From Tachypleus tridentatus (lineage: Eukaryota > Arthropoda > Merostomata > Xiphosura > Limulidae), in the NCBI RefSeq assembly GCF_004210375.1, contig NC_134827.1, positions 101,789,285 to 101,853,284 of the forward strand: a DNA stretch of 64,000 nt. Reading direction: 5' to 3'. Positions 3,873 through 63,761 of the stretch are shown piece after piece. The notes under the pieces are model-generated. The model was not told where the DNA came from. It saw nothing but the letters and a program-made list of their open reading frames with translations, and searched no databases. The position numbers were made by a program, and so were the translations under genes. The number at the start of each line of letters is the position of its first letter. Position 1 is the stretch's first letter.

Positions 3873-4005
3873 AAGAGTAGCCCAAGAGTTGGCGGTGGGT
3901 GGTGATGACTAGCTGCCTTCCCTCTAGTCTTACACTGCTAAATTAGGGACGGCTAGCACAGATAGCCCTCGAGTAGCTTTGTGCGAAATTCCCAAACAAA
4001 CAAAA
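3873..4005 (+). mobile_element. 5'-truncated tRNA-Thr-type SINE with target duplication
   Basis: Only the 3' half (from AAGAGTAGCCCAAGAGTTGG) is present, flanked by a perfect 11-bp duplication CTGTTAATCTG at 3862-3872 and 4006-4016. The truncation therefore happened during reverse transcription. Confidence 0.93.
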
Positions 4006-4324
4006 CTGTTAATCTGTTTAATGTCTGTGTGAAGCTATTTTAAGGCCATCTGTCGAACTGAAATGAATTTAACGAAAGTGTGAAAGTGTCGTTATTTCAC
4101 TCCTTTTGGTTCAAATGAATTTAATAACTATGTGAAAACGTCGTGTTTTTATTCCTTTCGTTGATTGAAATGAAGTTGACGACGGTGTGAAAATGTCGTT
4201 GTTTCTTGATATGAAAATCGACAAATCTGTTTTAACAACAAGTAAATTTAAAACAGCTGTCTTCATTATCATGAGTGCAGGGGAGAGGGGGAAGTGCGAT
4301 CACATCCCCTAAATTGTACCCACA

Positions 4325-4590
4325 TGAGTGTGTATATGTGTGTGTGCGTGTATGATAAACGCAACAACTGTGAAAGGTGTAAATTCGCAACGTTCATCGA
4401 GGGGACATGCTTCCCTTTCCCCCAGTATGTCTTCGCCATTCACTTCCGTTCTCCCCCAAAGTGTGTGTGTGTGTATGATAAACACAACAAATGTGAAATG
4501 TGTAACTTCGCAACGTTCATCATGGGGACATGCTCCTCTATCCCCCAGTATGTCTTCGCCATTCAGTTCCATTCTCCTCCAAAGTAGCAT
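4325..4590. repeat. tandem duplication of about 130 bp with GT runs
   Basis: Two copies (about 4330-4462 and 4463-4588) of a segment running GTGTGTGTATGATAAAC ... TGGGGACATGCT ... CCCCCAGTATGTCTTCGCC ... CTCCAAAGT. Open frames on both strands (93 to 115 codons) are products of the duplication; none resembles a known protein. Confidence 0.85.
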
Positions 4591-4811
4591 CTATTTTCTA
4601 AGATTTCTGCTCACGTCATACACACATACACATAAAGAAGGCTTAACTGTCACATTCCATTTCAGGGGGTTGTGAGTTATCCCTGGCCAAGCTCACGATA
4701 TCTTATCAGAATGATACTTCTTTCAAAAACATTCCACATTTGAAACATGGCTGAGTGATGAACTTTTAATAACAGGATTAGGTGATGAAAACAAGAGACT
4801 GGATTGTGGGG

Positions 4812-7800
4812 TTCTAAAAACAAGATTCGATTATGGATGGATAATAAAGTTACTAAAACAAGGATGGATAATAAGGTTACTAAAACAAGGATGGATAATA
4901 AGGTTATTAAAACAAGGATGGATAAGGTTATTAAAACAAGTATGGATAATAAGGTTACCAAAACAAGGATGGATGAGGTTATTAAAACAAGGATGGATAA
5001 TAAGGTTACTAAAACATGGATGGATAATAAGGTTCTAAAACAAGGATGGATAATAAGGTTACCAAAACAAGGATGGATAATACGGTTATTAAAACTAGGA
5101 TGGATAATAAGGTTACTAAAACAAGGATGGATAATAAGGTTACTAAAACATGGATGGATGATAAGGTTCTAAAACAAGGATGGATAATAAGGTTACTAAA
5201 ACAAGGATGGATAATAAGGTTATTAAAAGAAGGATGGATAATAAGGTTACTAAAACAAGGATGGAAAATAAGGTTACTAAAACAAGGATGGATAATACGG
5301 TTATTAAAACAAGGATGGATAATAAGGTTACTAAAACAAGGATGGATAATTAGGTTATGAAAACAACGATGGATAATAAGGTTATTAAAACAAGGATGGA
5401 TAATAAGGTTATTAAAAGAAGGATGGATAATAAGGTTACTAAAACAAGGATGGAAAATAAGGTTACTAAAACAAGGATGGATAATACGGTTATTAAAACA
5501 AGGATGGATAATAAGGTTATTAAAACAAGGATGGATAATAAGGTTACTAAAACAAGGATGGATAATAAGGTTACTAAAAAAGGATGGATAATCAGGTTAC
5601 TAAAACAAGAATGGTTAATAAGGTTATTAAAACAAGGATGGATAATAAGGTTACTAAAACAAGGATGGAAAATAAGGTTACTAAAACAAGGATGGATAAT
5701 ACGGTTATTAAAACAAGGATGGATAATAAGGTTACTAAAACAAGAACGGATAATAAGGTTACTAAAACAAGGATGGATAACAAGGTTATTAAAACAAGAA
5801 TGGATAATAAGGTTATTAAAACAAGGATGGATAATGAGGTTATGAAAACAAGAATGTATAATAAGGTTACTAAAACATGGATGGATAATAAGGTTACTAA
5901 AACAAGGATGGAAAATAAGGTTATGAAAACAAGGATGGATAATAAGGTTATTAAAACAAGGATGGATAATAAGGTTACTAAAACAAAACGGATGATAAGG
6001 TTACTAAAACAAGGATGGATAATAAGGTTACTAAAACAAGGATGGATAATTAGGTTATGAAAACAAGGATGGATAATAAGGTTACTAAAACAAGGATGGA
6101 AAATAAGGTTACTAAAACAAGGATGGATAATACGGTTATTAAAACAAGGATGGATAATAAGGTTACTAAAACAAGGATGGATAATTAGGTTATGAAAACA
6201 ACGATGGATAATAAGGTTATTAAAACAAGGATGGATAATAAGGTTATTAAAAGAAGGATGGATAATAAGGTTACTAAAACAAGGATGGATAATTAGGTTA
6301 TGAAAACAACGATGGATAATAAGGTTATTAAAACAAGGATGGATAATAAGGTTACTAAAACAAGGATGGATAATAAGGTTACTAAAAAAGGATGGATAAT
6401 CAGGTTACTAAAACAAGAAGGGTTAATAAGGTTATTAAAACAAGGATGGATAATAAGGTTATTAAAACAAGGATGGATAATAAGGTTATTAAAACAAGGA
6501 TGGATAATAAGGTTATTAAAACAAGGGTGGATAATGAGGTTATGAAAACAAGAATGTATAATAAGGTTACTAAAACATGGATGGATAATAAGGTTACTAA
6601 AACAAGGATGGAAAATAAGGTTATGAAAACAAGGATGGATAATAAGGTTATTAAAACAAGGATGGATAATAAGGTTACTAAAACAAAACGGATGATAAGG
6701 TTACTAAAACAAGGATGGATAATAAGGTTACTAAAACAAGGATGGATAATTAGGTTATGAAAACAAGGATGGATAATAAGGTTACTAAAACAAGGATGGA
6801 TAATAAGGTTATTAAAACAAGGATGGATAATAAGGTTACTAGAACAAGGATGGATAATGAGGTTATGAAAACAAGGATGGATAATAAGGTTATTAAAACA
6901 AGGATGGATAATAAGGTTACTAAAACAAGGATGGATAATGAGGTTATGAAAACAAGGATGGATAATAAGGTTACTAAAACAAGGATGGATAATAAGGTTA
7001 CTAAAACAAGGATGGATAATAAGGTTATTAAAACAAGGATGGATAATAAGGTTACTAAAACAAGGATGGATAATAAGGTTACTAAAACAAGGATGGATAA
7101 TCAGGTTACTAAAACAAGAATGGATAATAAGGTTATTAAAACAAGGATGGATAATAAGGGTACTAAATCAAGGATGGATAATAAGGTTATTAAAACAAGG
7201 ATGGATAATGAAGTTATGAAAACAAGGATGGATAATCAGGTTACTAAAACAAGAATGGATAATAAGGTTATTAAAACAAGGATGGATAATAAGGTTACTA
7301 AATCAAGGATGGATAATAAGGTTACTAAAACAAGGATGGATAAGGTTATTAAAACAAGGATGGATAATAAGGTTACCAAAACAAGGATGGATGAGGTTAT
7401 TAAAACAAGGATGGATAATAAGGTTACTAAAACATGGATGGATAATAAGGTTCTAAAACAAGGATGGATAATAAGGTTACCAAAACAAGGATGGGTAATA
7501 CGGTTATTAAAACTAGGATGGATAATAAGGTTACTAAAACAAGGATGGATAATAAGGTTACTAAAACATGGATGGATGATAAGGTTCTAAAACAAGGATG
7601 GATAATAAGGTTACTAAAACAAGGATGGATAATAAGGTTATTAAAAGAAGGATGGATAATAAGGTTACTAAAACAAGGATGGAAAATAAGGTTACTAAAA
7701 CAAGGATGGATAATACGGTTATTAAAACAAGGATGGATAATAAGGTTACTAAAACAAGGATGGATAATTAGGTTATGAAAACAACGATGGATAATAAGGT

Positions 7801-9853
7801 TATTAAAACAAGGATGGATAATAAGTTTATTAAAAGAAGGATGGATAATAAGGTTACTAAAACAAGGATGGAAAATAAGGTTACTAAAACAAGGATGGAT
7901 AATAAGGTTATTAAAACAAGGATGGATAATAAGGTTACTAAAACAAGGATGGATAATTAGGTTATGAAAACAACGATGGATAATAAGGTTATTAAAACAA
8001 GGATGAATAATAAGGTTACTAAAACAAGGATGGATAATAAGGTTACTAAAACAAGGATGGATAATAAGGTTACTAAAAAGGATGGATAATCAGGTTACTA
8101 AAACAAGAATGGTTAATAAGGTTATTAAAACAAGGATGGATAATAAGGTTATTAAAACAAGGATGGATAATAAGGTTATTAAAACAAGGATGGATAATAA
8201 GGTTATTAAAACAAGGATGGATAATGAGGTTATGAAAACAAGGATGGATAATAAGGTTACTAAAACAAGGATGGATAATAAGGTTACTAAAACAAGAACG
8301 GATAATGAGGTTACTAAAACAAGGATGGATAATAAGGTTATTAAAACAAGAATGGATAATAAGGTTATTAAAACAAGGATGGATAATGAGGTTATGAAAA
8401 CAAGAATGTATAATAAGGTTACTAAAACATGGATGGATAATAAGGTTACTAAAACAAGGATGGAAAATAAGGTTATGAAAACAAGGATGGATAATAAGGT
8501 TATTAAAACAAGGATGGATAATAAGGTTACTAAAACAAGGATGGATAATAAGGTTATTAAAACAAGGATGGATAATAAGGTTACTAAAACAAGGATGGAT
8601 AATACGGTTATTAAAACAAGGATGGATAATAAGGTTACTAAAACAAGGATGGATAATAAGGTTATTAAAACAAGGATGGATAATAAGGTTACTAAAACAA
8701 GGATGGATAATGAGGTTATGAAAACAAGGATGGATAATAAGGTTATTAAAACAAGGATGGATAATAAGGTTACTAAAACAAGGATGGATAATGAGGTTAT
8801 GAAAACAAGGATGGATAATAAGGTTACTAAAACAAGGATGGATAATAAGGTTACTAAAACAAGGATGGATAATAAGGTTATTAAAACAAGGATGGATAAT
8901 AAGGTTACTAAAACAAGGATGGATAATAAGGTTACTAAAACAAGGATGGATAATCAGGTTACTAAAACAAGAATGGATAATAAGGTTATTAAAACAAGGA
9001 TGGATAATAAGGGTACTAAATCAAGGATGGATAATAAGGTTATTAAAACAAGGATGGATAATGAAGTTATGAAAACAAGGATGGATAATAAGGTTATTAA
9101 AACAAGGATGGATAATAAGGTTACTAAAACAAGGATGGATAATAAGGTTATTAAAACAAGGATGGATAATGAGGTTATGAAAACAAGGATGGATAATAAT
9201 GTTATTAAAACAAGGATGGATAATAAGGTTATTAAAACAAGGATGGATAATGAGGTTATGAAAACAAGGATGGATAGTCAGGTTACTAAAACAAGAATGG
9301 ATAATAAGGTTATTAAAACAAGGATGGATAATAGGGTTACTAAATCAAGGATGGATAATAAGATTATTAAAACAAGGATGGATAATAAGGTTACTAAAAC
9401 ATGGATGGATAATAAGGTTACTAAAACAAGGATGGATAATAAGGTTATTAAAACAAGGATGGATAATAAGGTTATTAAAACAAGGATGGATAATAAGGTT
9501 ACTAAAACAAAACGGATGATAAGGTTACTAAAACAAGGATGGATAATAAGGTTACTAAAACATGGATGGATAATAAGGTTACTAAAACATGGATGGATAA
9601 TAAGGTTATTAATACAAGGATGGATAATGAGGTTATGAAAACAAAGATGGATAATAAGATTATTAAAACAAGGATGGATAATAAGGTTACTAAAACATGG
9701 ATGGATAATAAGGTTACTAAAACAAGGATGGATAATAAGGTTATTAAAACAAGGATGGATAATAAGGTTACTAAAACAAGGATGGATAATAAGGTTACTA
9801 AAACATGGATGGATAATAAGGTTATTAATACAAGAGTAGATGATGTCGTTATT
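4812..9853. repeat. 27-bp minisatellite, about 185 copies (5.0 kb)
   Basis: Unit AAGGTTACTAAAACAAGG plus ATGGATAAT. Being 27 bp, it leaves two plus-strand frames open (KVTKTRMDN and RLLKQGWII) and at least one minus-strand frame (LSILVLVTL). The longest uninterrupted run is 518 codons (8082-9638). Variants include ATTAAA for ACTAAA, ACATGG for ACAAGG, GAAAAT, TACGGT, GAGGTTATG, and short units of 24 to 26 bp that shift the frame. Large blocks are duplicated (about 4.9-5.6 kb and 7.3-8.0 kb; about 6.8-7.2 kb and 8.65-9.1 kb). I regard it as non-coding satellite DNA. Confidence 0.97.
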
Positions 9854-10050
9854 TAAAAAATATTAGGCAATAATAAGATAGTAAAAACAAAATTGTATGA
9901 TAAGATAATTAATACAAGAATAGATGATAATAGAGTAAAACAAGACCGGATGATAAGATAGTAAAACAAGACGGGATGATAAGATAGTAAAACAAGACCT
10001 GATGATAAGATAGTAAAATAAGACCGGATGATAAGATACTGAAACAAGAC
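9854..10050. repeat. diverged 25-26 bp extension of the 27-bp array
   Basis: Units of the form GATAAGATAGTAAAACAAGA plus CCGGAT, clearly related to the array to the left but with the GTTACT core changed to ATAGT. It looks like an older, degenerate edge of the satellite. Confidence 0.8.
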
Positions 10051-11368: not shown

Positions 11369-12353
11369 TCAGCAATGAGTTGCACAGTCGTCATTGCGAA
11401 TAACTTCAAACATTCGCTTTGGCATGGTCGATATAAGCGTTTGAAGAAGGCTGGCTAGAATGTTATTCCAAGTGGTAAAGATGGCTTCGCGAAGATGATG
11501 CACTGTTTGACGTCCATTTCTAAAGACTTTCCTTGCCATCCACCCTCAAACATTTTCAATGGGATTCGACTTGGGCGAACACGCTGGAAGATCCAAAAGA
11601 ATCACGTTAATCGCCATGAAAAAGTCCTTTTGCCTGCGGGCATTGTGGATTGCAGCGTTGTCCTGCTGAAAGATCCAGTCATTTCCACACAAGCGAGGGC
11701 CTTCAGTCAATAAGGATGCTCTCTTCAATATGCCAATGTAGCCAGCTGTTGTTTGACGCCCCTATATAACCTGAAACTCCATTGTTCCATGGAAGGAGAA
11801 AGCACTCCAGATCATGATGGAACCTCCTCCACTGTGTCGTGTACAAAATGTCTCCGGTGGGATATCCTTATCGTCTCATTAACGTTGGAAGCCATCTGGA
11901 CCATCCAGGTTAACTTTTTCTCGTCAGACAACAAAACCTTCTTCCACTTTTCTACGTCCCATGTTTGGTGCTTCTCAGCAAAGTTTAACCAGGCTGTTTC
12001 GTGATGTGAAAAGAGATGTGGCTTTTGAAAACGTTTACGGTTTTCAAAGCCTTTCTCTCGTAGATGCCGTCTCACTGTTCTTGACCTGCATTCTGCGTCC
12101 GTAAGGGCCTTAATCTGGTTCGACGATCGGCTCTTGTTTTGCCGAACAACCCATCGAATCCTCCTGCTCAACGCCGGCGAAAGTTTCTTGGGCCGACCAC
12201 TTGAAATTCTCGTTCCGTGTCTTTTAAGAAATTTGCAATAGCAGTTTTACTTCGCCCAATCTCACCAGTGATGGCACGTTGAGAGTGACTTTTCTTTTGC
12301 AGCTCAAAAATTCTGCCACGTTCAAACTCTGTCAACCTTTTAACCTTTGCCAT
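11369..12353 (-). pseudogene. decayed Tc1-like (DD34E) transposase
   Basis: Minus strand from ATG at 12353: MAKVKRLTEFERGRIFELQ and SQRAITGEIGRSKTAI (N-terminal paired-type HTH), GRPKKLSPALSRRIRWVV in a shifted frame (near 12190), WLNFAEKHQTWDVEKWKKVL, LSDEKKLTW (first Asp), FQQDNAAIHNA (second Asp), LDLPACSPKSNPIENV (Glu), then the C-terminal REAIFTTWNNI and a stop at 11369-11371. There are 34 residues between the second Asp and the Glu. At least two frame breaks and one stop (after IENV) make it inactive. The implied length of about 328 residues is normal for Tc1. Confidence 0.88.
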
Positions 12354-39601: not shown

Positions 39602-42600
39602 GTAAGTTGTGTATGTACTCATAATTTACATTCATATCACAAACAGTCTTTGAAGTGAGAAACTGAGAACTCTGCAATTACAGTTGAAGCTCTTTGAGAT
39701 GATTGAGGGTAATGAACGTGATTTAAGCCTAATCAGTCAAATCTTTGATAACAATTCCAATGACTAACAGAAATTATTATTAACACTGAAAATGACCAAC
39801 TAGTGTTTCTACTTGTTACAGTTTTTGTTTGTTACAACTATCTAATAGTTTAAATATTTCTAATACCTATTATGTTTTGTTTTGTTGTTAAGCCTAAATC
39901 TGAATAATTGGTTATTTGTACTCTGCCCATAATATGTATTGAAACCCAGTTTTTGGTGGTGGAATTTTCTTCTTTCTTCACATTTGTTCAACTTTGAGCC
40001 AGCACAGCCTGGTGTTTAGGGGGTACCTTATGATGTTAGAGTTGGGGGTTTAATTTCTGTTGCCACTGGCCTTGCTTGCCCTTTTAGCCTTTGTGACATC
40101 ATTTGTTTCTTTTGAAGTTGTATTTTCTCACTTGACTAGTTTTATCTCGGGGCTACTCAGACAAGAATCTATTAAACGAAAGCTCCGTAACTTGAATAAT
40201 AATTCTACTTGTGTTAAATTAAACTTGCTTTATGGGTGTTAAAACTAAAATAAAGTACAGAACATTTCAATCTTTGGACACCTTCAGGTTAACAAAGAAC
40301 TTCTCTGTACTGTATTTCAATTAAAGTTTCAATACCTGTACCATCCATCTTGAGAATACATTTTTTACTTCAAGCGGGTTTTTCATCATCATGAATAAAC
40401 TTGCTTTAATTCTTTTCAACTAGCTATATAAATACTTTTACAAACTATTGTAGGTCTATATTATATCCAAGTTTACCATCTACTTTTATTATTGCCTTCT
40501 AGTGTTAATCTAAGTTATACGTGATGGGCTTCCACTAGAAAAATAACTCTCTTAGCCACAGTGACAGTTGTTTAGTCACAATTTTAGGTTGCCAAAAACT
40601 GTGTGGTGCATGACTTTTAATATTCATCAATTGCATCCAGTAAAAAATAGTTGTAATTATGTGAAAATCTACAAGACATTAAGTTTTGTACTATTTTTTT
40701 TATTCCCCAGCAATCTTCCCCACCAAAAAAAACCCAACAAAACAAACAAAATAAATATGATAAAGAGAAAAATAAAGAAATACATTTCTCAAAATAACAC
40801 AGAAACAAAAAAGAATGACTTAAAACTAGAATACGGTAGCATGACTGGTAAGTAGATAAATCCAATGGCAGTTCGTCAGCCAAATCATTCTCAACAGAAG
40901 ATGTGATAGAAGTTGACACCTGAGGTTCCAAAGCCCATTTCTTCAACAGGGAATAGTACCCATGTCTGTCTTTGTGAGTGATCCAGTATTTGAATGCAGA
41001 GTTGAAGTCAAAATGATCTAAAGGTTTGGACTCCATGGATAAGCTCAGTAACACTTTTATATCTTGGCCACAGACAGACTACTCCTGGCATCTGTTTTGA
41101 TGCTGTTGTACCTGCCAATTCCCTGCTCACAGTCAACAGATGTAACTGGAATTATTTATCCAATTGCTGCAAGCTGAGACAGATTTGGAAAAGTTTGATG
41201 GGTCTGGTGGATGTATTCCTTGTAGAAGCTCTTCATGTTTCTCAGTGATGTCGAAAGGAGAGAAGTGCTGGATGAGTTTTTCAGATCATCCTCACCAGAT
41301 ACTGCTTTGCTGTGACATGGGCTAAATATTGAAAAAAAAATGACATGATGTTAGTGTCTGGGAATGTTACTTGTAGTCTTGTGACCATGTCTTCAACAAA
41401 TGACTCAGCAGCTGATCTGTACTTTTCACGTTGTTTATCAATATACTTGATGTCATAGCCTCTGTAAGAAGTGTAACCATTGGCATCAGCAGCTTGTGGG
41501 AGTTCCTTCAGTGCAGTCTGTGTGTAAGGACCAGGGATGTGTACCAGTGACTGAATTGACAGAATTGGCCCATCAATAATTGCTTTAGCCTGATCATAAG
41601 ATAAATCAACTCTCTGTAGAGATCTTGATAAAAGTCCAAGAATGGCAACAGCGTCAGCCAAAAAATGTGTCATCGTGACAAAGCTGTAACATGACATTTG
41701 CTGGACTAGACCATGTAGCAAGGCTCAGCCTGGAGTACCACGTTCCATTGCTACGACCTGCAGGCAGCTTATCACAGATGCAATACAGTTCACTAGTGCT
41801 TGGATGGAATCATTAAAAGAGAGCCATCATGTGAAGAACACTTGTTTGATTTTGTTGCTTTGCTCTCTTCCAGAACCTGACACAACTTAGGAGAATATTT
41901 CAGGCTTTTTGCAAACTGGTTCAAAAGTGAAATGTACTTCACAAGATATGGCACCTGGTTTGCTGCCTTTTCAATTGCCAACTGTAATCTGTGTGCCAAA
42001 CAATGACTTGTTATTATCCAGGGACTTTCCTCCTTAACAAACAACGACTTGTTATTATCCAGGGGCTTTCCTCCTTAACAAACAATGACTTGTTATTATC
42101 CAGGGACTTTCCTCCTTAACAAACAATGACTTGTTATTATCCAGGGGCATTCCTCCTTAACAAAGAACGACTTGTTATTATCCAGGGGCTTTCCTCCTTA
42201 ACAAACAATGACTTGTTATTATACAGGGGCTTTCCTCCTTAACAAACAACGACTTGTTATTATCCAGGGACTTTCCTCCTTAACAAACAATGACTTGTTA
42301 TCCAGGGGCTTTCCTCCTTAACAAACAATGACTTGTTATTATCCAGGGGCATTCCTCCTTAACAAACAATAACTTGTTATTATCCAGGGGCATTCCTCCT
42401 TAACAAACAATGACTTGTTATTATCCAGGGGCATTCCTCCTTAACAAACAATGACTTATTATTATCCAGGGGCATTCCTCCTTAACAAACAACGACTTGT
42501 TATTATCCAGGGGCATTCCTCCTTAACAAACAACGACTTGTTATTATCCAGGGACTTTCCTCCTTAACAAACAACGACTTGTTATTATCCAGGAATTTTC

Positions 42601-45600
42601 CTCCTTAACAAACAACGACTTGTTATTATCCAGGGACTTTCCTCCTTAAATTTTAAAGCAACACCTGTTTTTTTATTCCCACCATGACATTTGCACCATC
42701 AGTTGTAAGTCCAACCAAGTCAACATCAAACAGTCCTCAATGTGCCATGACTGAGTGCATTGTGTTGTAGATAGAATCAGCCCCACTCTTGGTCAGCTCA
42801 TGCACAGCAAGGAATCGACTTGTAACCTCACCTAATGATGAAAGATATGTGATATAAATTATCAGTATAGAGGTGTTTCCTGCATCAGTTGCTTCATCTG
42901 CTTCAAGAGCAAAAAATGGGAAAGGTGATGCCCGAAAGTCTGTCTGCATTTCATCCTGAACTACATGATTTAGGGCACTGTCCCTATCATCCAGAAACTG
43001 GCTATGGGTGTATATGAAGCTCTTTGTTCCACTTTGTGACTGAGTCTGTAGTTTCTTTAAAGAGGTCACTCCATGTTTAATAATATATATAAGAATTTGT
43101 GTTTTGAAATAAGATCACCAATTTAAATAATAAACAAAGATATTTGGAAAAGTTGGCTAGCTACTTAATTTTTGATAGATATTTTCAAAATGTTTCACTT
43201 TTAGAAAATTGTCAAATTGCCTTTTGTTTTAAGAAAATACTGTAGAAAACAGAAAGTATCTTATTAATACTAGAATGAAGAATATTCTTACATTGAATAC
43301 TTGTAGTGGAAGGAGGGAATGAAACTTTACAGTTGGGATGGCTTCCTTTGTTTGTACAAGTAATGTGGCCATCTGTGCCTGAATGCCACCTTTACACCCC
43401 ACATTCACAGCAGCAGTTGACATGTCCTTCTTCAAAACTTGTGATGCTACTGCACTGCGATGATCTTCTGACCGTGCATGCTTCACCAAGTCGTCTTTTT
43501 TAGGCTTAGTAGCAGTTTTTTCAGTGGTAGCATAAATATTTGTCTTCTTGTTGTCCCTGCATAATTTGCAATGAAATGTATTTTGTTGGGAAACATGTTC
43601 CAGCCAAGGAAACTGTGAAAACCAAGTTTCTTTAACAACTCTGTGAAAATCATGGGTAAATTTTTTTTCACACTGACAGTCTGATCACTGCTGGAAGCTT
43701 CAGTTTCTTCAGAGCTGTCTTTTCTTTTGGAAGTGGATTTCTCACCATAAGTTGATGTTGTTGCTTCGACCTTCTTTTGAAAAAAATTTATGTATCTAAC
43801 TGTTTAGACGTCTTTTTATCTGATCTAGGAGTTGTCATGATCTAAATTCAAACACATGTCAAACGAAACTTGGGATTTCCACTTTGATACAGACCATATG
43901 TTGGTTTGATGAAATTCAGGTTTCCTCTGATTACTGTATGTGTACCACGGGCAGAATCAAACATGTAGCATAAGAAATGAAAATAAAAGAAATTATTAGC
44001 ACAGCTGAGTAATATTTTTTTTATTTAATTTGTTAGTTGTCATATCAGTGAAATCATAAAAATACATATATAAAGAAAATATAGGTTACAGTCAGTGGTA
44101 GTTTTTAAAGACGTTTCTTCAGCTCGCTGGGGGTCATCTCTGGTCATTTGTCATCATTAATGGCATGGATGGTGATAAAAACCACGAAAGTTAAGACCAA
44201 AACTTGAGTAGAATAAATAAAGGAAAACCATCCAAGACCAAAAAATTAACTTTTGCCACTGTGGCAAAACCAACACTAGATATTTTAGCCACAGACTGTT
44301 CCTTTTTGGCAATGGCGATGTGGCTAATGGCCAGCAGAAGTTTAGTACATGTAAAGGAAATGTAAATAAACCCAGTTCTCATTTTTTTTACATGAGATTC
44401 TAAGCCTCAAATTACTGGTTTGTTTTTATGTTGTTTTCTAATTTAGTGGTCCACATTTTGTATCATATTTACCTTGGATATGTTTTTGTCTGTCACAATG
44501 TAAAGAACAGTGAAATTATTCATTTTCTGTGTAAAATACATAGGGGACTCCAGTGGTAATAGGTGGGTTTCATTTTAATGTTGATGGTACTCCTATTTTT
44601 GTTTGTGCATAACTTGTACTTGTGACCCCATAACAAACAAAGAAGCTGACATGGTTGTTTTGAATTCCTCAATGGAAATAACAAATGCTATGGCAAAACT
44701 TATTGGCTGTGTCATTTTATTTTATTCAGTATAAATACAGTACCACTGTTTTTTGTGATTAGATTAGGTGTCAGCAACCCAAGTAATAAGAAAAACCTCT
44801 TTTTTTTATTTTGGTAAAACTGCAAAGTGCTGAGAGCTGCAAAGCACACAACCCCTATTTCAATAATTGGACAAAGAGAGGGCTAAATAATTACAGACTG
44901 CTGACCTATGGATTAGATAGTGCTTGTGAACATACAGAATTCATCTAAGGCTGTTTCAGAAAAATATATAAATAATGTTAGATTAGTTGTAAATTTGTAC
45001 AGAAACATAGATTGGTTGCCATCTTTGCAAACCAATAGTGCTATGTAACACAAATTTTGTTCCTGGATAGTATGTGTTATTTCTTAACTGCTTATGTTAT
45101 AAAAGTACAGAAAATGGCCATTATTCCCTTCAAACTTTGCTTTTTGTGACCTGGATAATAAAAATTAGAAATTAACCTATTTTCTATGTTAAAATGAATA
45201 AATTTGCACATTTTCATTTACATAAGGTCTGAATAAACAACATATGAATCAAGATTTACATGTATTTATACTAAGTTATACAAAAATGTTTAGAAGTGAG
45301 TAGTTTTTTGAGATTTGCAACTGCAATGTAACTCACTTTCATGTATCAGCCCCCAAATATAGTCTCCCATCGTGTTTTAGTTATACAGTCCAAGGTCACA
45401 AAAGCAAAGTTTGAAGAGAAAAATAGGTCTTTTCCATTTACTTTAGACACAAACAATTGGGAAATAACACTTTCTGTCCAGGAACAAGAAAAAGTAAAAA
45501 TTCTGTTACATAATGTTGTTATTATTAAGAAAGAACTGAATATAAATTGTGTTAATGAGTGAAATTCTTACAGAATAAAGACAAGTAAACTTTAATCTCC

Positions 45601-56128: not shown

Positions 56129-56665
56129 TTACAAAATGTAAAATACGATAAGAAGATAGAAACGTGTGGTACATTAATATACTGTACAATACAATTACAT
56201 AGTTATACAAAATCTGCTTTGTTTATTGATTTTTACACCAACCAGAATGGTAATGTTTTACACAAATCTTTAATTCTATTGATGCTTAAGGGAAATTATT
56301 CAAATGGTCTTAAAATGCCCTTACAAAACATTCAAATCTGCTTAGAATTTATGAGGTACCTAAGGCCCTTATTTGTTATAAAAATAATTTTATTGATACC
56401 TATACACGAAAATCTGGTTCTTGAAATATGAGAAAACGGGAATCGGGATGATTTGTGAAATACTTATATTTGAAGTAAGAAAAAAAAACAGCGTAACTGG
56501 TTTGTGTAAGACTTTGTGATTATGCCAACCTGAAATAGCCACTCTGAATTGTTATAGTTTATTAATTTAATAACGAGGAACCCATTTTTTAGAAAAATAA
56601 AAGTTTTGTACGGGTTGTGAAAACGTCTTACATTTATAATAAAGTGTTTTCATCACCAATCACAC

Positions 56666-56919
56666 CCGGCATGGCCAAGCGTTTTAAGGCGTGCGACTCG
56701 TAATCTAAGGTCGCGGGTTCGCATCCCCGTCGCGTCAAACATGCTCACCCTTTCAACCGTGGGGGTGTTATAATTTACGGTCAATCCCATTATTTGTTGG
56801 TAAAAGAGTTGGTGGTGGGTGGTGATAACTAGCTGCCTTCTTACACTACTAAATTAGGGACGGCTAGCACAGATAGCCCTCGAGTAGCTTTATGCGAAAT
56901 TCAAAAAGCAAGCAAACAA
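56666..56919 (+). mobile_element. tRNA-Thr-type SINE with near-perfect target duplication
   Basis: Flanks CATCACCAATCA (left) and CATTACCAATCA (right) differ by one base. The body lacks the TAGCCCAAG block. Confidence 0.9.
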
Positions 56920-57121
56920 TTCATTACCAATCAAGCCTTTGCAAAACTTTTATTGAGTAAGTTTATTTCATTGTCGCATTTTGTCACCTGTGCTTGTACC
57001 AAAAATAGAATAAAAAAGGAGTAAGATATTTGGTGTAGTTCTATACAACTGTTAAAGTACCGTAGCAGTTTCAAGTCTGCCAAAAGATAACGAGATAGTT
57101 TCGGGCTCTCCTGACAGTTCC

Positions 57122-57230
57122 ATGCTGGAACAGCTGTAAGACTTCAGCTTTACAACGTTAAAGTCAGGCGTTCGATTCCCCTCAGATAGCGCGATGTGGC
57201 TTTTCTATAAGAAAAACACACACACTCTCA
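57122..57230 (+). mobile_element. third-family SINE upstream of ARPC5
   Basis: GCTGGAACAGCTGTAAGACT head, GGCGTTCGATTCCCCTCAG box B, and ATGTGGCTTTTCTATAAGAA with a (CA)n tail. Confidence 0.7.
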
Positions 57231-57839
57231 TGAAGAAAATTTGATGACATTCGGTCCAGCATCATTTACCATGAATATCGATAATAAAGATAAACAAAAT
57301 GTTACTTTTAAAAGTATTTATCATTTTAAATATTTTTTATATTAATGGATTCATAAGATAATAATTTATTACCGAATTAATTGTTATAACATTTCAAAAA
57401 AAAAGTTTTTTTTTTATGGGCTTGTCTTTCTCTTCTGGATGATGCGTTGTCTCAAATTCTAAAGCTCCTGTATGTGAAACAAATATATAATACTTCAAAG
57501 ACGTAAGCAAAGCATTGTCGCTTAATAATTTAATTCATATAAACTTAGCTACGTGTATAAAAGTTTGTTTCTCAGCAGGTTACATTTAGGATCCATTATT
57601 TATATATTTATTTATTATATGTCTACATAAAACTGTGAGTTTTAATTCTTGAATTTTTTAATTTTCGATTTGGTCAAAACAAGTAACAAAATGGAATAAA
57701 TATGGCGCTCAATCAATAGTACTTCCAAATCAAGTTGTGTTAAATCTTACTATACCAAAGTACAGAGAATTCTAAAGTACACCACATTTAGGCTTAGCAA
57801 AGCAGTAGTTACAGTTTATTCGCTTAAGATTATTATAAA
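57231..57839 (+). promoter_or_regulatory. ARPC5: ARPC5 upstream region and 5' UTR
   Basis: The sequence before the ATG is AT-rich without CpG enrichment. No convincing TATA box position can be fixed because the transcription start is unknown. The start codon context is TAAAATGG. Confidence 0.35.
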
Positions 57840-57985
57840 ATGGCTAAAAATACAGCTGGGTTTGGGTTTCGAAAAATTGATGTGGACCAGTATAATGAAG
57901 ATTTATATAAAGATGAAGACGGAAGCGAAGCACCATCACCTCCAGCAGGACCTGACGAACACGAGATTATGTCGTATTTGAATCA
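57840..57985 (+). CDS. ARPC5: ARPC5 coding exon 1
   Basis: Encodes residues 1-48 and two bases of a Gln codon, ending EIMSYLN plus CA. No usable GT lies at the family splice point; the next bases are ATATCCTTT, the U12-type AT-AC donor. Read-through would stop at TAA 57998-58000. Confidence 0.92.
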
Positions 57986-60900
57986 ATATCCTTTGTTTTA
58001 ATTTTACTGCCTTTCAGGTTTTGTAAAAGTTTTACTTTCTGGTTATTGCTACCGATACATGCCAGCATAAATTGTATCTATCACATATGTTAAGGCCTAA
58101 CGTAGCAATAACACGTGATATTTGAAATAATGTTAACATTAAATATACGAATAATGATTTTACATTTTCGCCTTTTGTTTTCTGTTGCTACTGACAGACA
58201 TTAGCAATTTAAAGTCGGTGTGGTTAACTCATCATTATATATCAATATTTTTCAACAGTTTACATGTTTAATTTGACAAATCTACAAGAACAGTAATCGT
58301 TACTGCAAGAACTTAAGTGAATAAAGGTGAAACACGCTAAGATATATTATTGTTGTTTCAAGTGAAAAAATTGCTATTTAAGTTTTATTTTCCAAAAATC
58401 AGTAATTAGTGCTGTACAGTTTTATAAGGTTCCATTTAAATGCATAAAAATATTAGAATAGATAGTAGAAAAGTGCCAGAATGGTTACTGATTTGTATGA
58501 CATTTTTTTTTGAATAAAGCTTTAAAATAATGGGTTTTAAACGTTTATCAGAGCTTATAAATACTAGGTCATAGCCCTTGCACTGTCTGCTTTCATTTAG
58601 AGAAAATCTGGATGTGTTGAAAAAAGTGACCAATTGTCTTTTAGAAATGTTCAAGCTTGATTAATATTGCTAATTGGTAGCATAAAAGTCAGAACTAGTG
58701 TTTTTTTTTGCATTTGCATCTGCCTTTAAGTTTACAAATGTATGTAGGGAACAAAAAATTAATAACTTCTGTTTTTTCCTGATGCAAAATAACATAAAAT
58801 TTGCTTTAGAGATCTTTTTGATTGAATATGATACTTGAAATTGTTTTAGTGTTTGTTTTTTGAATTTTATGCAAAGCTACATGAAGGCTATCTGCATTAG
58901 CCATCCCTAATTTAGCAATGTAAGACTAGAGGGAAGACAGCTTGTTGTTAACACCCACAGCCAGCTTTTGGGTTACTCTTTTACCAATAAATAGTGGGAT
59001 TGGCTGCCACATTATAACACCTCTATGGCTGAAAGAGTGGTCATGTTTGGTGTGACTGGGATTCGAACCTGCAACCCTCAGATTATAAGTCGAGCACCCT
59101 AACCACCTGGCCATGCCAGGCCAGGTTGCATTATATATGACAGTGTAAACTCAGTAGATACGTACTGCATTAGTATTTATTTTATAATAAAAACTACATT
59201 ATAAGTTACCACAATTTTAGTCTTGACAGTTTTTTCATTAGAAATAAAAGGTAAGTAATCTTTAAATAGAGTTGGTGTTTTTAATCGCTAACCCTAATAT
59301 GCCAGGCCTCAGTTTTTATGTAATTTCTTATAAAGATTTTATATAAATGGACCACAAAGACTGTAGCAATGTATGTGAACTAGGCTTAGCTTGTTTTTCT
59401 TTCTTCCTTTATATGCCCACACAAATGCATGTATGTACAGTAATAATGTACATGTTAGTTTTTATACTATATTGCATTACACTTAATACACAATAAATAG
59501 ATATCCAAAAGATAATTTTAATGTGATTGAAAATAATCGTACAATAAAACTATTTAATGGATTATAAAGATACATTGAAGCATTCTATGTTTACGTGTTC
59601 AGAGTTCATGTTCAACTTTAACTGTTTGTACAGGCAAAAACATTGATGCTTTGAAAACTGTCTTGCGAACAGCTCCCATTGGGTCAAAAAATCCTAGTGT
59701 GAAGGTAAGAATTTAAAGATATGTATTGTGTGTAAACATACACAATCTACTGTTTATATATCAAAAGCCTTTTACTCACCACAAGTAGTTTATATTCTAT
59801 CACCAGTTCCTGGATCTTCAGTTTATTAAAACTGGCTACTCTTATTTCGAGGTAATCGGAAGTGAGGCAATAGCTCCAAACAGGTACACATCTACACAAG
59901 CCCCACTGTGTCAAATGTTAAGGACAAGTGTGAAAAGCTTAACCATATTATGTGTGTGGTTAGGTATTGTTCAAAGAAATTTAGTTTGGTTGGTAATTGT
60001 AAATAAAATCTTTTACTGAAAATGACTCTTATAGACTACTTTGAGCATTGCTTTTATTTCCTTCAATCAACCACATGGGATTAATGAATTGAATACCATG
60101 CTTTCAGTGTATGAGATACTACAAGGGTGGATGACCATCGTTTGTATTCATGATATATGAATCAGCTGCAGGTAGTGATCAGCTTCAAATGCTCACTGAG
60201 AATAACAGCATATTGAACACAGTTTGTAACAGTTTTTGAAGTACGTTATCCATGCTATCTTAAATAAAACTTGTAATTCTTAACGGATTAAAACAAACAG
60301 CTGCTACAACCAGGGTCAAACAACAACAAAAATTTATTGAACTCTGTCAACCACAGAAATCCAAAATAAAACATTTCAAACAATTGGATTATAAAAGTTT
60401 ATAACTCACCAAAACCCCAGTTATTAAATACATGCCTGCCCAGGACTTGACAATGATGCTAATGAATAATACAACATATATATATATATGTATCATTGTT
60501 AATAATTACTTCAATAAACAAAAGGATCAGGAAAGCAAACCAGAGGAGGGGACCTAATTTCAAAGTAACAGGATTCTGTATTAAAATTATTACAAGATTG
60601 ATGAAAATATTGAGAAATAATCATAAATAACATTAAAAATTTAGTTCCACTAGGACAAGTAGTAATGAAATACATGTTAACTGTATGATTTATTTATAAT
60701 AATTGTATTTTTGTAAATTTCTGGAAAGGATTCCAAATGTATTAAATACAAGTACAATCACTAAAGTACTATCCATATATATATATATCTGTACTTTCTT
60801 TTCTTTAGAAACTCCCATACAAATTTTTATATATGTGGATAGTACTTTAGTGATTCATAACAAATAATGTAGTGGTTAACATTAATTTGTGTGGAAGTTT

Positions 60901-62519
60901 TGACTCTAAACAAATGTGTTTCATATAACATTACAAACTGTCATGCTGTGCCACTGAATTATGTTCTTTTCATAAAATAACTAATAATTTATTCAAACTT
61001 GGGTCATGAGAACGTTATTAACATAACAGAACGGCACTTAGGTCATGTTTATCGCAATGGAGACTCGTGTATAATTATCATCATTGGTGCTAACAGAACG
61101 GCTTTATCCATTCCAATTCAAATATGTTCCATCACTTGTGCAGTGATGTAATTACAGTGAGCTTAAAATTGTTCTGCTTGTTTTTTCACATCTGTTTTTA
61201 ATACAAAGTATTTATATATTACTTTTAGTCATGGTGAACATGCCTGTAACTTTTGTTATCCTTTTAACAGGATGCTGCATTTGCCCTAGTCATGAAAGTC
61301 CTTCTGGCTGTCAAAACTAGTGAGATGGAAAAAGCTGTGAACTGCTTAGATAGGGAACTGGTAGATATATTAATGAAGTACATATACCGAGGGTTTGAGT
61401 GTCCATCAGAAGGCAGTAGTGCACATCTTCTAGCTTGGCATGAGAAGGTAAGAAAGTAAATTGCATTGAAAAGGAGTTAAAGGTGAACTGTGATGAACTG
61501 GGAACATCAAATTCCTGCTCTTGTCAGAGAAGAAAAACTAATCTATAAAAAAAGAAAGAAATTACAAGTTTGTACCACATACCAATATCATCCAAACTCA
61601 GTTAAAAGTAATACTACTCATTAGTTTGCCAAACTCAGCTGTTGTATGTCTTTTAGATGGCTTAGAATGTAACACTTAGTTTCTTTAGTTTTAGAGATGA
61701 TAATTTTATGATATTATTGTGTTGTAGTACATTACATATTCCTCTATAGTTGTTTTTTTTCACAGATCTTGTTTCTAGTGCTGATAAGTTCTCTTTCTTC
61801 ATGGAGTTACAATAAGCAAGACACTGTAATCTGTCTTTTATTGTTACTTTTATTAACAGCATTTGTTGAGATGTTTAATATGTCTAGTCTTCATTATTAT
61901 TCATTATAAAGGCAGTTTTGCTTTGTTAAATTAGTATATGGATTTAGAACTAACCTAAGTCTCTTGGACTTGCCAAATCTCTTAAAATATTATTTGGTTT
62001 ATGACCAAATATATTGTTAACAGCCAGGGTATCCACTGATGAAACAATTCGTTGTGATGTTTTTAAGTGAGAATGTAAGAAAACTATACTTAGTTATTGT
62101 GAGGTTAGTTTTTTGATTTTTATATATATATGTAGCTTGTTTTTAATTGGTCAAATTTTATAAACCAGTCAGTATACCAAATGGAAGTAATAAAATATTA
62201 TTATTTTATAAGGCTCCTATTTGGATATTTAGCACCAAAAAGTATTGATTTGTGATAAATGTTTCTCTTCATTTTTGATAAATCTTTGAAATGGTAATGA
62301 AAATTTGTATACCTGTAATTAACTTTTACTGTTTTTGATTTTTTGTAAACTTAACTTTCTATATTTAATAGAAGTGCTGAACCATATAATAATATTTCTG
62401 TATCTGAATGTGTTGTATTGTTTATATGTCTCTGTTTCATTTCATTTTTTTTGTAGGCGTACGCAGCAGGTGGAGTTGGCTCGATAGTTAGAGTGCTGAC
62501 AGATAGAAAAAAAGTGTAG
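57840..62519 (+). CDS. ARPC5: Actin-related protein 2/3 complex subunit 5 (p16-Arc; whole gene, four coding exons)
   Basis: Smallest subunit of the seven-protein Arp2/3 complex, which nucleates branched actin filaments. Exons 57840-57985, 59632-59704, 61271-61447 and 62457-62519 join to 152 residues (human ARPC5 is 151). Visible: N-terminal FRKIDVDQYNED, an acidic/Pro-rich linker, AGPDEHEI, QGKNIDALK, ILMKYIYRGFECPSEGSS, AWHEKAYAAGGVGSIVRVLT and the final RKKV. All are signature blocks of the p16-Arc family. The start is the first ATG after in-frame stops and gives the family MAKNT N-terminus. No frameshift or missing block. Intron 1 is an AT-AC (U12-type) intron, phase 2; introns 2 and 3 are GT-AG, phase 0. 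A SINE-containing inverted repeat lies in intron 1. Confidence 0.95.
58848..59121 (-). mobile_element. tRNA-Thr-type SINE inside the ARPC5 AT-AC intron
   Basis: Full-length minus copy with diagnostic changes (ATAAGTCGAGCACCCTAACC in the head) shared with the copy at the right edge of the window. It is part of the inverted duplication. Confidence 0.92.
59125..59293 (-). repeat. left arm flank of a large inverted duplication
   Basis: The 170 bp right of the SINE at 58848-59121, ending CGCTAACCCTAA, is the reverse complement of 63762-63948, including AGTAGATACGTACTGCATTA and GGTAAGTAATC-like pieces, at about 80-85% by eye. Together with the SINE this makes an arm of about 445 bp. It lies inside the ARPC5 AT-AC intron. 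Confidence 0.85.
59632..59704 (+). CDS. ARPC5: ARPC5 coding exon 2
   Basis: Begins immediately after ...TTTGTAC. Its first base A completes the Gln codon, then GKNIDALKTVLRTAPIG and KNPSVK, and the donor AAG|GTAAGA. If the AG two bases later were used as a GT-AG type acceptor, the frame would hit TGA within five codons. Confidence 0.92.
60756..60855. repeat. 27-bp inverted repeat (hairpin) in ARPC5 intron 2
   Basis: Left arm at 60756-60782 (AATCACTAAAGTACTATCC then AT-rich) and right arm at 60829-60855 are reverse complements with one mismatch, separated by about 46 bp. Confidence 0.85.
61271..61447 (+). CDS. ARPC5: ARPC5 coding exon 3
   Basis: Acceptor CTTTTAACAG ends at 61270. The 59 codons cover the helical core (FALVMKVLLAVKTSEMEKAV, LMKYIYRGFE, SAHLLAWHEK), with donor AAG|GTAAGA. 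Phase 0 at both ends. Confidence 0.93.
62457..62519 (+). CDS. ARPC5: ARPC5 coding exon 4 with stop
   Basis: Acceptor TTTTTTTTGTAG ends at 62456. The 20 codons AYAAGGVGSIVRVLTDRKKV end with TAG at 62517-62519. The GGVGSIVRVL block is the family's most conserved C-terminal segment. Confidence 0.93.
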   Translation, partial: AYAAGGVGSIVRVLTDRKKV

Positions 62520-62569
62520 CTTTACAAACAAGATATATTAGTGTAGTTCTTAGATCTAGAACTTATAAA

Positions 62570-62877
62570 AATAAAGTGTGTTATTATGTATTATTTGGGT
62601 GAATGATTGAAAAAAAAAAACCATATTAAATATGGCTTATACTGTACTAAAAGAATCTCAGTATTTGTCTGAGCACTAAAAACATAAAATATTGATAAAT
62701 GGTATCTGTACCCAATTTGTAAATCAGAAATTGTTTTGGAAGCTAAGTTACCATTGATGTGTTTTTTTTTTTAAATAGGTTTTACAAATAAAGTCCCAGA
62801 CCATTACCATAATTGTAAGATTACACTGATCTTTAGACGATTATAATAGTTTTAAGACTTTTAAAAACACCAATAAA
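62570..62877 (+). promoter_or_regulatory. ARPC5: ARPC5 polyadenylation signals (three candidates)
   Basis: AATAAA hexamers at 62570-62575, 62787-62792 and 62872-62877. The last is followed by GTTGTGTTTTATTTTT, a plausible GU-rich downstream element. The 3' UTR would be about 70 to 380 nt depending on the site. Confidence 0.5.
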
Positions 62878-63761
62878 GTTGTGTTTTATTTTTATATTTT
62901 ACTGAAAAATGTGTTACCATTGTTTAACATAGATCCATATTTGAATTCTAATTGTAAATCTGAAAATGAACATCGCAGTTTTGTTTATGTTTTTTGTAAT
63001 ACTTTACTATTTCGAAACCAGCAGGAAGTATACTGACATATTTAATATTTGTGTTGTCTTGTTTTTTTGTAACCATATATATAAATGTGTGACATAGTGT
63101 AGCTAGTTTCTTATGCATTTTAAGCTGTATTGTAAAGAGAGAGAAAAATGTTTAGTGTTGTTCATACAGTTTGCTTGCTTAATGACATAATTGTGACAAT
63201 CAGTTGAAAGCGTAACAAAGGAAATTAATACCTTTGGTGATATAGTGATATTTTTTGAAATCGTACAAATAGTTTTTTCCTTCCTTATAATACTAGTGTA
63301 GCAGTATTATGACAATGAATTAGTCCAGCAAAATTGAGTCCACAAATCATATCTACGAAGTTTCAAAGTACTTGCTTGATATTAATTTAATGAAATTTGT
63401 CCATTTTTTTATTGATTAAAATATTTGACAGTAATATATATTCCTTCAAGTTAAACTGTTTGAAACCATCCAGCGTAGTCTTATTCAAAGCAGCTTGATT
63501 TCAAGAGAGTGTTAGGCCTAGGCCATGACGGTTGTTAGAAATGTTTTTAAGAAAATAAAAGTTTTTAATTAATTGAATGCAAGACTGAGTTTCTGTGTAA
63601 GTTTATAATAATCTTGTTTTATGTAAATGAAGATACTTTCGAATTTTGATGATAAAATAATATTGTGTAAATATCGATAAAACTTAATTATCGGTTCTAT
63701 AAAACTAAATTTCCTGACTATACTTTACAAAAAATAAAAAAAAAAAAAAAAAAAAATTTAG
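62878..63761. other. downstream of ARPC5, no gene recognised
   Basis: AT-rich; ends in a poly-A tract at about 63733-63756 immediately before the inverted-repeat arm. Confidence 0.45.

Follow-up and report, generated by a model that had tools for sequence, protein, structure and literature searches.

The locus raises the question of whether ARPC5 has a U12-type (minor) first intron with the ends AT and AC, or whether an ordinary junction, the major spliceosome or a wrong base in the assembly accounts for what is seen. The window, i.e. the whole stretch of DNA analysed (64 kb, C3:101789285-101853284, from a genome of 2,167,478,450 bases in 205 contigs), contains a gene for the actin regulator ARPC5, with four coding exons on the + strand that encode 152 aa. 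The protein matches Pfam PF04699 (P16-Arc) with E 5.8e-48 (residues 10-152 of 152, profile positions 2-150 of 150) and, end to end, the 16 kDa subunit of Arp2/3 (1k8k_G, E 2e-46). With a probability of roughly 95%, judged from the sequence, intron 1 is a U12-type AT-AC intron that probably dates back to an ancient ARPC5 gene. The features of the gene are as follows.

57840..57985, + strand: ARPC5 coding exon 1, from ATG to the split codon CA/; translation MAKNTAGFGFRKIDVDQYNED...SYLN(Q)
57986..59631, + strand: predicted U12-type AT-AC intron 1, 1,646 bases, phase 2; termini ATATCCTTTG...TTTGTAC
57986..57994, + strand: predicted U12-type 5' splice site ATATCCTTT, able to pair with the genome's own U11 and U6atac; same in the paralogue on contig C2
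58850..59122, no strand assigned: dispersed repeat within intron 1, with blastn copies of 73-80% identity at four places of a 23-kb C2 region; presumably SINE-like
59614..59622, + strand: putative branch point sequence AACTTTAAC; the branch A is likely 59621, with a spacing of 10 bases to the intron end; predicted pairing with the genome's own U12
59630..59631, + strand: predicted 3' splice site AC; with exon 2 starting at 59632 the junction reads CAA GGC (Q G)
59632..59704, + strand: ARPC5 coding exon 2, (Q)GKNIDALKTVLRTAPIGSKNPSVK, then GTAAG
59705..61270, + strand: intron 2, ordinary GT-AG, phase 0, GTAAGAATTT...TTTTAACAG
61271..61447, + strand: ARPC5 coding exon 3, from the translation of the joined exons
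61448..62456, + strand: intron 3, ordinary GT-AG, phase 0, GTAAGAAAGT...TTTTTTTTGTAG
62457..62519, + strand: ARPC5 coding exon 4, AYAAGGVGSIVRVLTDRKKV followed by the stop codon TAG

Introns 2 and 3 both start with GTAAG, end with AG and lie in phase 0. Intron 1 starts with ATATCCTTTG and ends with CATGTTCAACTTTAACTGTTTGTAC, with CTTTAAC near its 3' end. The donor ATATCCTTT occupies 57986-57994, CTTTAACTG is found at 59616-59624, and the terminal AC at 59630-59631 is followed by AGGCAAAAAC. With AT as the first and AC as the last two bases (57986-59631) the frame is restored with LNQ-GKN. The split codon CA/A then encodes Gln and the resulting protein, SYLNQGKNIDAL, agrees with SCLRQG of mammalian ARPC5.

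All joins from GT, GC or AT starts at 57930-58059 to AG ends at 59600-59659 (AC ends too for AT starts) were enumerated. Twenty-six of them, including three GT-AG joins, leave an open frame through exon 3, and 57986/59631 alone among these 26 yields LNQ-GKN. The original prediction, according to which only AT...AC joining keeps the frame, is therefore not literally correct; what stands is that no other join produces LNQ-GKN. It had also stated that the nearby AG leads to a stop within five codons. This agrees with our reading of the sequence, in which an intron end at AG 59633 results in CAG CAA AAA CAT TGA. The nearest rival join, AT-AG at 57988/59633, gives LNQ-CKN and was rejected; its donor, ATCCTTTG, is not of the U12 type.

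A GT-AG intron might be used instead, e.g. 57995..59604, since the frame is open from 57971, 57974 and 57995, each to 59604. Such a protein, however, would carry an insertion, and the extra residues (e.g. SCSTLTVCT) have no counterpart at that place in mammalian ARPC5. By eye, their donors (e.g. GTTTTAAT) are of low quality, and the same AT donor recurs in the C2 paralogue. Hence, we consider the use of a GT-AG junction very improbable, and the GT-AG and AT-AG joins were dropped on protein fit and, by eye, site quality.

The U12-type 5' splice site is highly conserved, with the consensus RTATCCTTT. The AT-AC intron was predicted to begin with a perfect U12-type donor, and ATATCCTTT at 57986 indeed fits this consensus and offers full pairing to the U11 and U6atac of the same genome. 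AAAGG of U11 can form 5/5 pairs with CCTTT (+5 to +9), and AAAGGA of U6atac can form 6/6 pairs with TCCTTT (+4 to +9). At the other end, AACTTTAAC resembles a U12-type branch sequence, which is similar to TTCCTTRAY and lies a short way upstream of the 3' splice site; by eye, 6/9 letters coincide with the consensus TTCCTTAAC. The U12 stretch GTAAGGAA can pair with the branch sequence at 6/8 positions, including one G-U, with one A bulged; the unpaired positions are the two 5'-most. A motif about 10 bp before the terminal AC had been predicted, in agreement with a likely branch A at 59621 and AC at 59630-59631. The optimum spacing between branch A and intron end is 11–13 bases according to the accessible part of PMC3584512, so that 10 bases are just under this optimum; the spacing would be 11 if the first A was used. 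U12-type introns lack a distinct polypyrimidine tract upstream of the 3' splice site; here, CATGTTCAACTTTAACTGTTTGTAC is of mixed composition and somewhat T-rich, as judged by sight.

An intron with AT-AC ends might nevertheless be spliced by the major (U2-type) spliceosome. Such introns are known: a study in human cells covered 85 major introns of the AT-AC or related subtypes (PMC8280824, as far as excerpted). Here, however, the donor matches U6atac (+4 to +9) and U11 (+5 to +9) without a single mismatch, a U12-type branch sequence lies close to the intron end, and the C2 paralogue keeps both signals. Thus, major splicing of intron 1 is highly unlikely.

The donor motif was rejected as stand-alone evidence, because about one occurrence per window is expected by chance: ATATCCTTT has a single occurrence in the window, where a shuffled one should have 1.36, and 75 of 100 shuffles contain it at least once. 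Of the 128,000 strand positions of the window, 3 carry ATATCCTT, and 61 of 7,560 AC dinucleotides are preceded by YYTTRAC at a distance of 8-15 bases from the branch A, the site itself being counted in both cases. If independent, donor and branch signal would coincide at the junction fixed by the protein family with a probability of about 2e-7. Since the family fixes this junction beforehand, it is the position, and not the motif alone, that goes beyond chance.

A search of the genome with the ARPC5 protein resulted in eight matches, namely the four exons of the window, three belonging to a second gene and one fragment.

C2:124131155-124137371, - strand: second ARPC5 gene with four exons (loci L019, L020 and L026)

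Its identity to the window gene is 62% in exon 1, 64% in exon 3 and 51% around exon 2. Exons 1–3 match P16-Arc with E 1.6e-39, and exon 4 was located by tblastn. The fragment, a copy of about 204 bases of window 57693-57896 with 94% identity, is located on contig C8 (locus L027, 5077-5279). It comprises the ARPC5 5' region and the first 19 codons, joined to unrelated sequence with a stop soon after.

In the C2 gene, exon 1 ends with AACCA/ATATCCTTTAAG and the intron ends with TTACCTTAACAGTAACAA/AGGAAAAAAC, the slash marking the junction. Its intron 1 has the donor ATATCCTTT at the same codon and in the same phase as in the window gene. When window 57001-63500 was compared by blastn with the 23-kb C2 region, only the dispersed repeat, at four places, was shared outside the exons. 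Consequently, the common donor is not a trace of recent copying. This bears on whether a GT donor was misread as AT by a sequencing or assembly error. Assemblies do contain single-base errors, but the diverged C2 copy has ATATCCTTT at the same codon, and joining this donor to AG 59633 breaks the frame, so that one would have to assume another, independent error. The chance of such an error is negligible.

The 3' end of the C2 intron probably differs from that of the window intron. With the donor fixed, 6 of 18 end positions keep the frame, whatever the last two bases. Two upstream ends (AG and AA, 6 and 3 bases away) add residues and are nearer to the branch sequence, and three downstream ends (GG, AA and AA) lose residues. 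The chosen end AA, which would join C2:124137223 to C2:124134819, gives LNQ-GKN, an exon 2 of 73 bases as in the window gene, and a spacing of 9 bases between branch A and intron end; the genome's own U12 can pair with the C2 branch sequence at 7/8 positions. The intron ATATCCTTT...TACCTTAACAGTAACAA/AGG is compatible with AT-AA by sequence, and an AT-AA end is predicted because it is the sole fit to the ARPC5 family among the six frame-keeping ends. An AT-AC intron with an extra lysine was rejected, since the AC of the C2 intron is out of frame. Among the non-canonical minor introns of animals, AT-AA is the most frequent type (PMC10639083). We consider it likely that both ARPC5 genes have remained gated by A-type minor introns after duplication, with donor, branch signal, codon and phase kept and the 3' ends differing (AC vs AA). 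If this is true, every ARPC5 copy is tied to the minor spliceosome, and the pair is a natural experiment on the effect of the last base in AT-AN minor splicing. Genome duplications are reported for horseshoe crabs, and the two ARPC5 genes may stem from them.

The original prediction implied a working minor spliceosome in this organism and proposed a search of the genome for U11, U12, U4atac and U6atac. Rfam models gave full-length matches to all four. At least one match was found for U12 (127.7 bits) and at least one for U4atac (83.1 bits), at least two for U11 (94.4 and 84.8 bits, 11 kb apart) and at least four for U6atac (128.3, 97.6, 86.1 and 51 bits). All matches score above the Rfam cut-offs and span the whole model; the copy numbers are lower bounds, as the best candidates were scored (for U12, 44 of 166,053). 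Each of the four models had 0/14 matches in the named control genomes. By eye, the best U6atac match, on contig C6, has a T run at its end and a TATA-like stretch upstream, and the other three (L003, L004 and L005 on C4, C8 and C11) resemble degenerate versions of that gene. The 80-base stretches upstream of the two U11 matches (C12:136563198-136574477, - strand) are nearly identical, and this pair is probably a recent local duplication.

Profile searches of the genome revealed three matches to the PDCD7 family on C8, two to Ubiquitin_4 on C3 and four to CCDC84/CENATAC on C13. We take the PDCD7 matches to be U11-59K and the Ubiquitin_4 matches to be of the SNRNP25 type. The zf-U11-48K family was discarded as proof of U11-48K: it has two matches here, but it also occurs in 1 of the 14 control genomes, and the better match is, by its look, presumably a GTSF1-type protein. 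Together, the snRNA matches, the protein-family matches and the pairing potential support the presence of a working minor spliceosome. In the same searches, Pfam Coagulin had 19 matches in the genome; to our knowledge, coagulogen is confined to horseshoe crabs. Together with a resemblance of the repeats, this suggests that the genome belongs to a horseshoe crab.

The order of the steps in minor splicing is established knowledge, and applied to ARPC5 it would proceed as follows. U11 would pair with CCTTT and U12 with CTTTAAC, both as part of the U11/U12 di-snRNP. The U4atac/U6atac.U5 particle would join next, and U6atac would take the place of U11 at TCCTTT. Next, the A at 57986 would be attacked by the branch A (59621 or 59620), and ligation of exon 1 to exon 2 at 59632 would complete the Gln codon CAA. 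Splicing at intron 1, the branch A, help by CENATAC and any dosage effect are what we infer for this gene.

Minor introns in ARPC5 are known from human cells. The human gene has a minor intron that is extremely sensitive to a decrease of U6atac, although control cells show few reads from it, if any (PMC3728624, eLife 2013, in the accessible text). It is the same gene as in the window and both contain a minor intron; subtype and position may be shared as well, and common descent with the vertebrate intron is inferred. The vertebrate paralogue ARPC5L likewise has a U12-type intron, which is mis-spliced in patients with RNPC3 mutations. According to the available portion of this report, cryptic U2-type sites are activated, giving a transcript without 27 residues (PMC3958305, EMBO Mol Med 2014). 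Such an intron in a chelicerate is to be expected if it is older than the divergence from vertebrates.

In the excerpted text of a survey of minor introns, Limulus polyphemus, a horseshoe crab, and arachnids are relatively enriched in minor introns and mites except ticks are generally poor in them; ARPC5 is not named for Limulus there (PMC10639083, NAR 2023). The excerpts of the papers found to contain ARPC5 in connection with minor introns likewise name no chelicerate ARPC5; the intron may already be listed in U12DB, IAOD or MIDB. AT-AC introns had been called a small minority even of U12 introns. This is too strong, as they make up 24–26% of human minor introns in the parts of two reports at hand (PMC10639083, PMC8280824).

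In human cells, CENATAC promotes the splicing of A-type (AT-AN) minor introns (PMC8280824, EMBO J 2021, as excerpted). This class would take in the AT-AC intron of the window and the predicted AT-AA intron on C2, and the genome has a CCDC84/CENATAC match. The AT-AC and predicted AT-AA pair would allow terminal-base tolerance and CENATAC dependence to be tested on matched introns outside vertebrates. The original prediction further tied ARPC5 dosage to the minor spliceosome. By analogy this is plausible, because human ARPC5 is extremely sensitive to a U6atac decrease (PMC3728624, in the text available), and both ARPC5 genes found would fall under it if the idea holds.

The observation of an AT-AC minor intron in ARPC5 is confirmed at the level of sequence; the intron is well supported and belongs to a kind already known. 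Knowledge of minor introns in general is unchanged by this case, which provides an ARPC5, probably of a chelicerate, with an AT-AC minor intron in a genome that also contains components of minor splicing.

An Rfam scan of the whole 64-kb window yielded nothing at gathering scores, ARAGORN with the bacterial code found nothing in window 56500-63000, and in viral contigs 0 of 6 pattern-matching stretches were ARPC5 relatives at E 1e-3. Elsewhere in the window, a long repeated array extends over 4677-9862 with open frames on both strands, the + strand reading KTRMDNKV, and positions 4001-8000 show a strong GC and AT skew. A transposase fragment (Pfam HTH_Tnp_Tc3_2, E 8.1e-10) is located at 11812-12246 on the - strand. 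On the same strand, a C17orf113-type zinc finger (E 1.6e-9) is encoded at 43229-43684, and a nearby open frame at 41281-41724 has no Pfam match. These two stretches are perhaps one transposon-derived gene.
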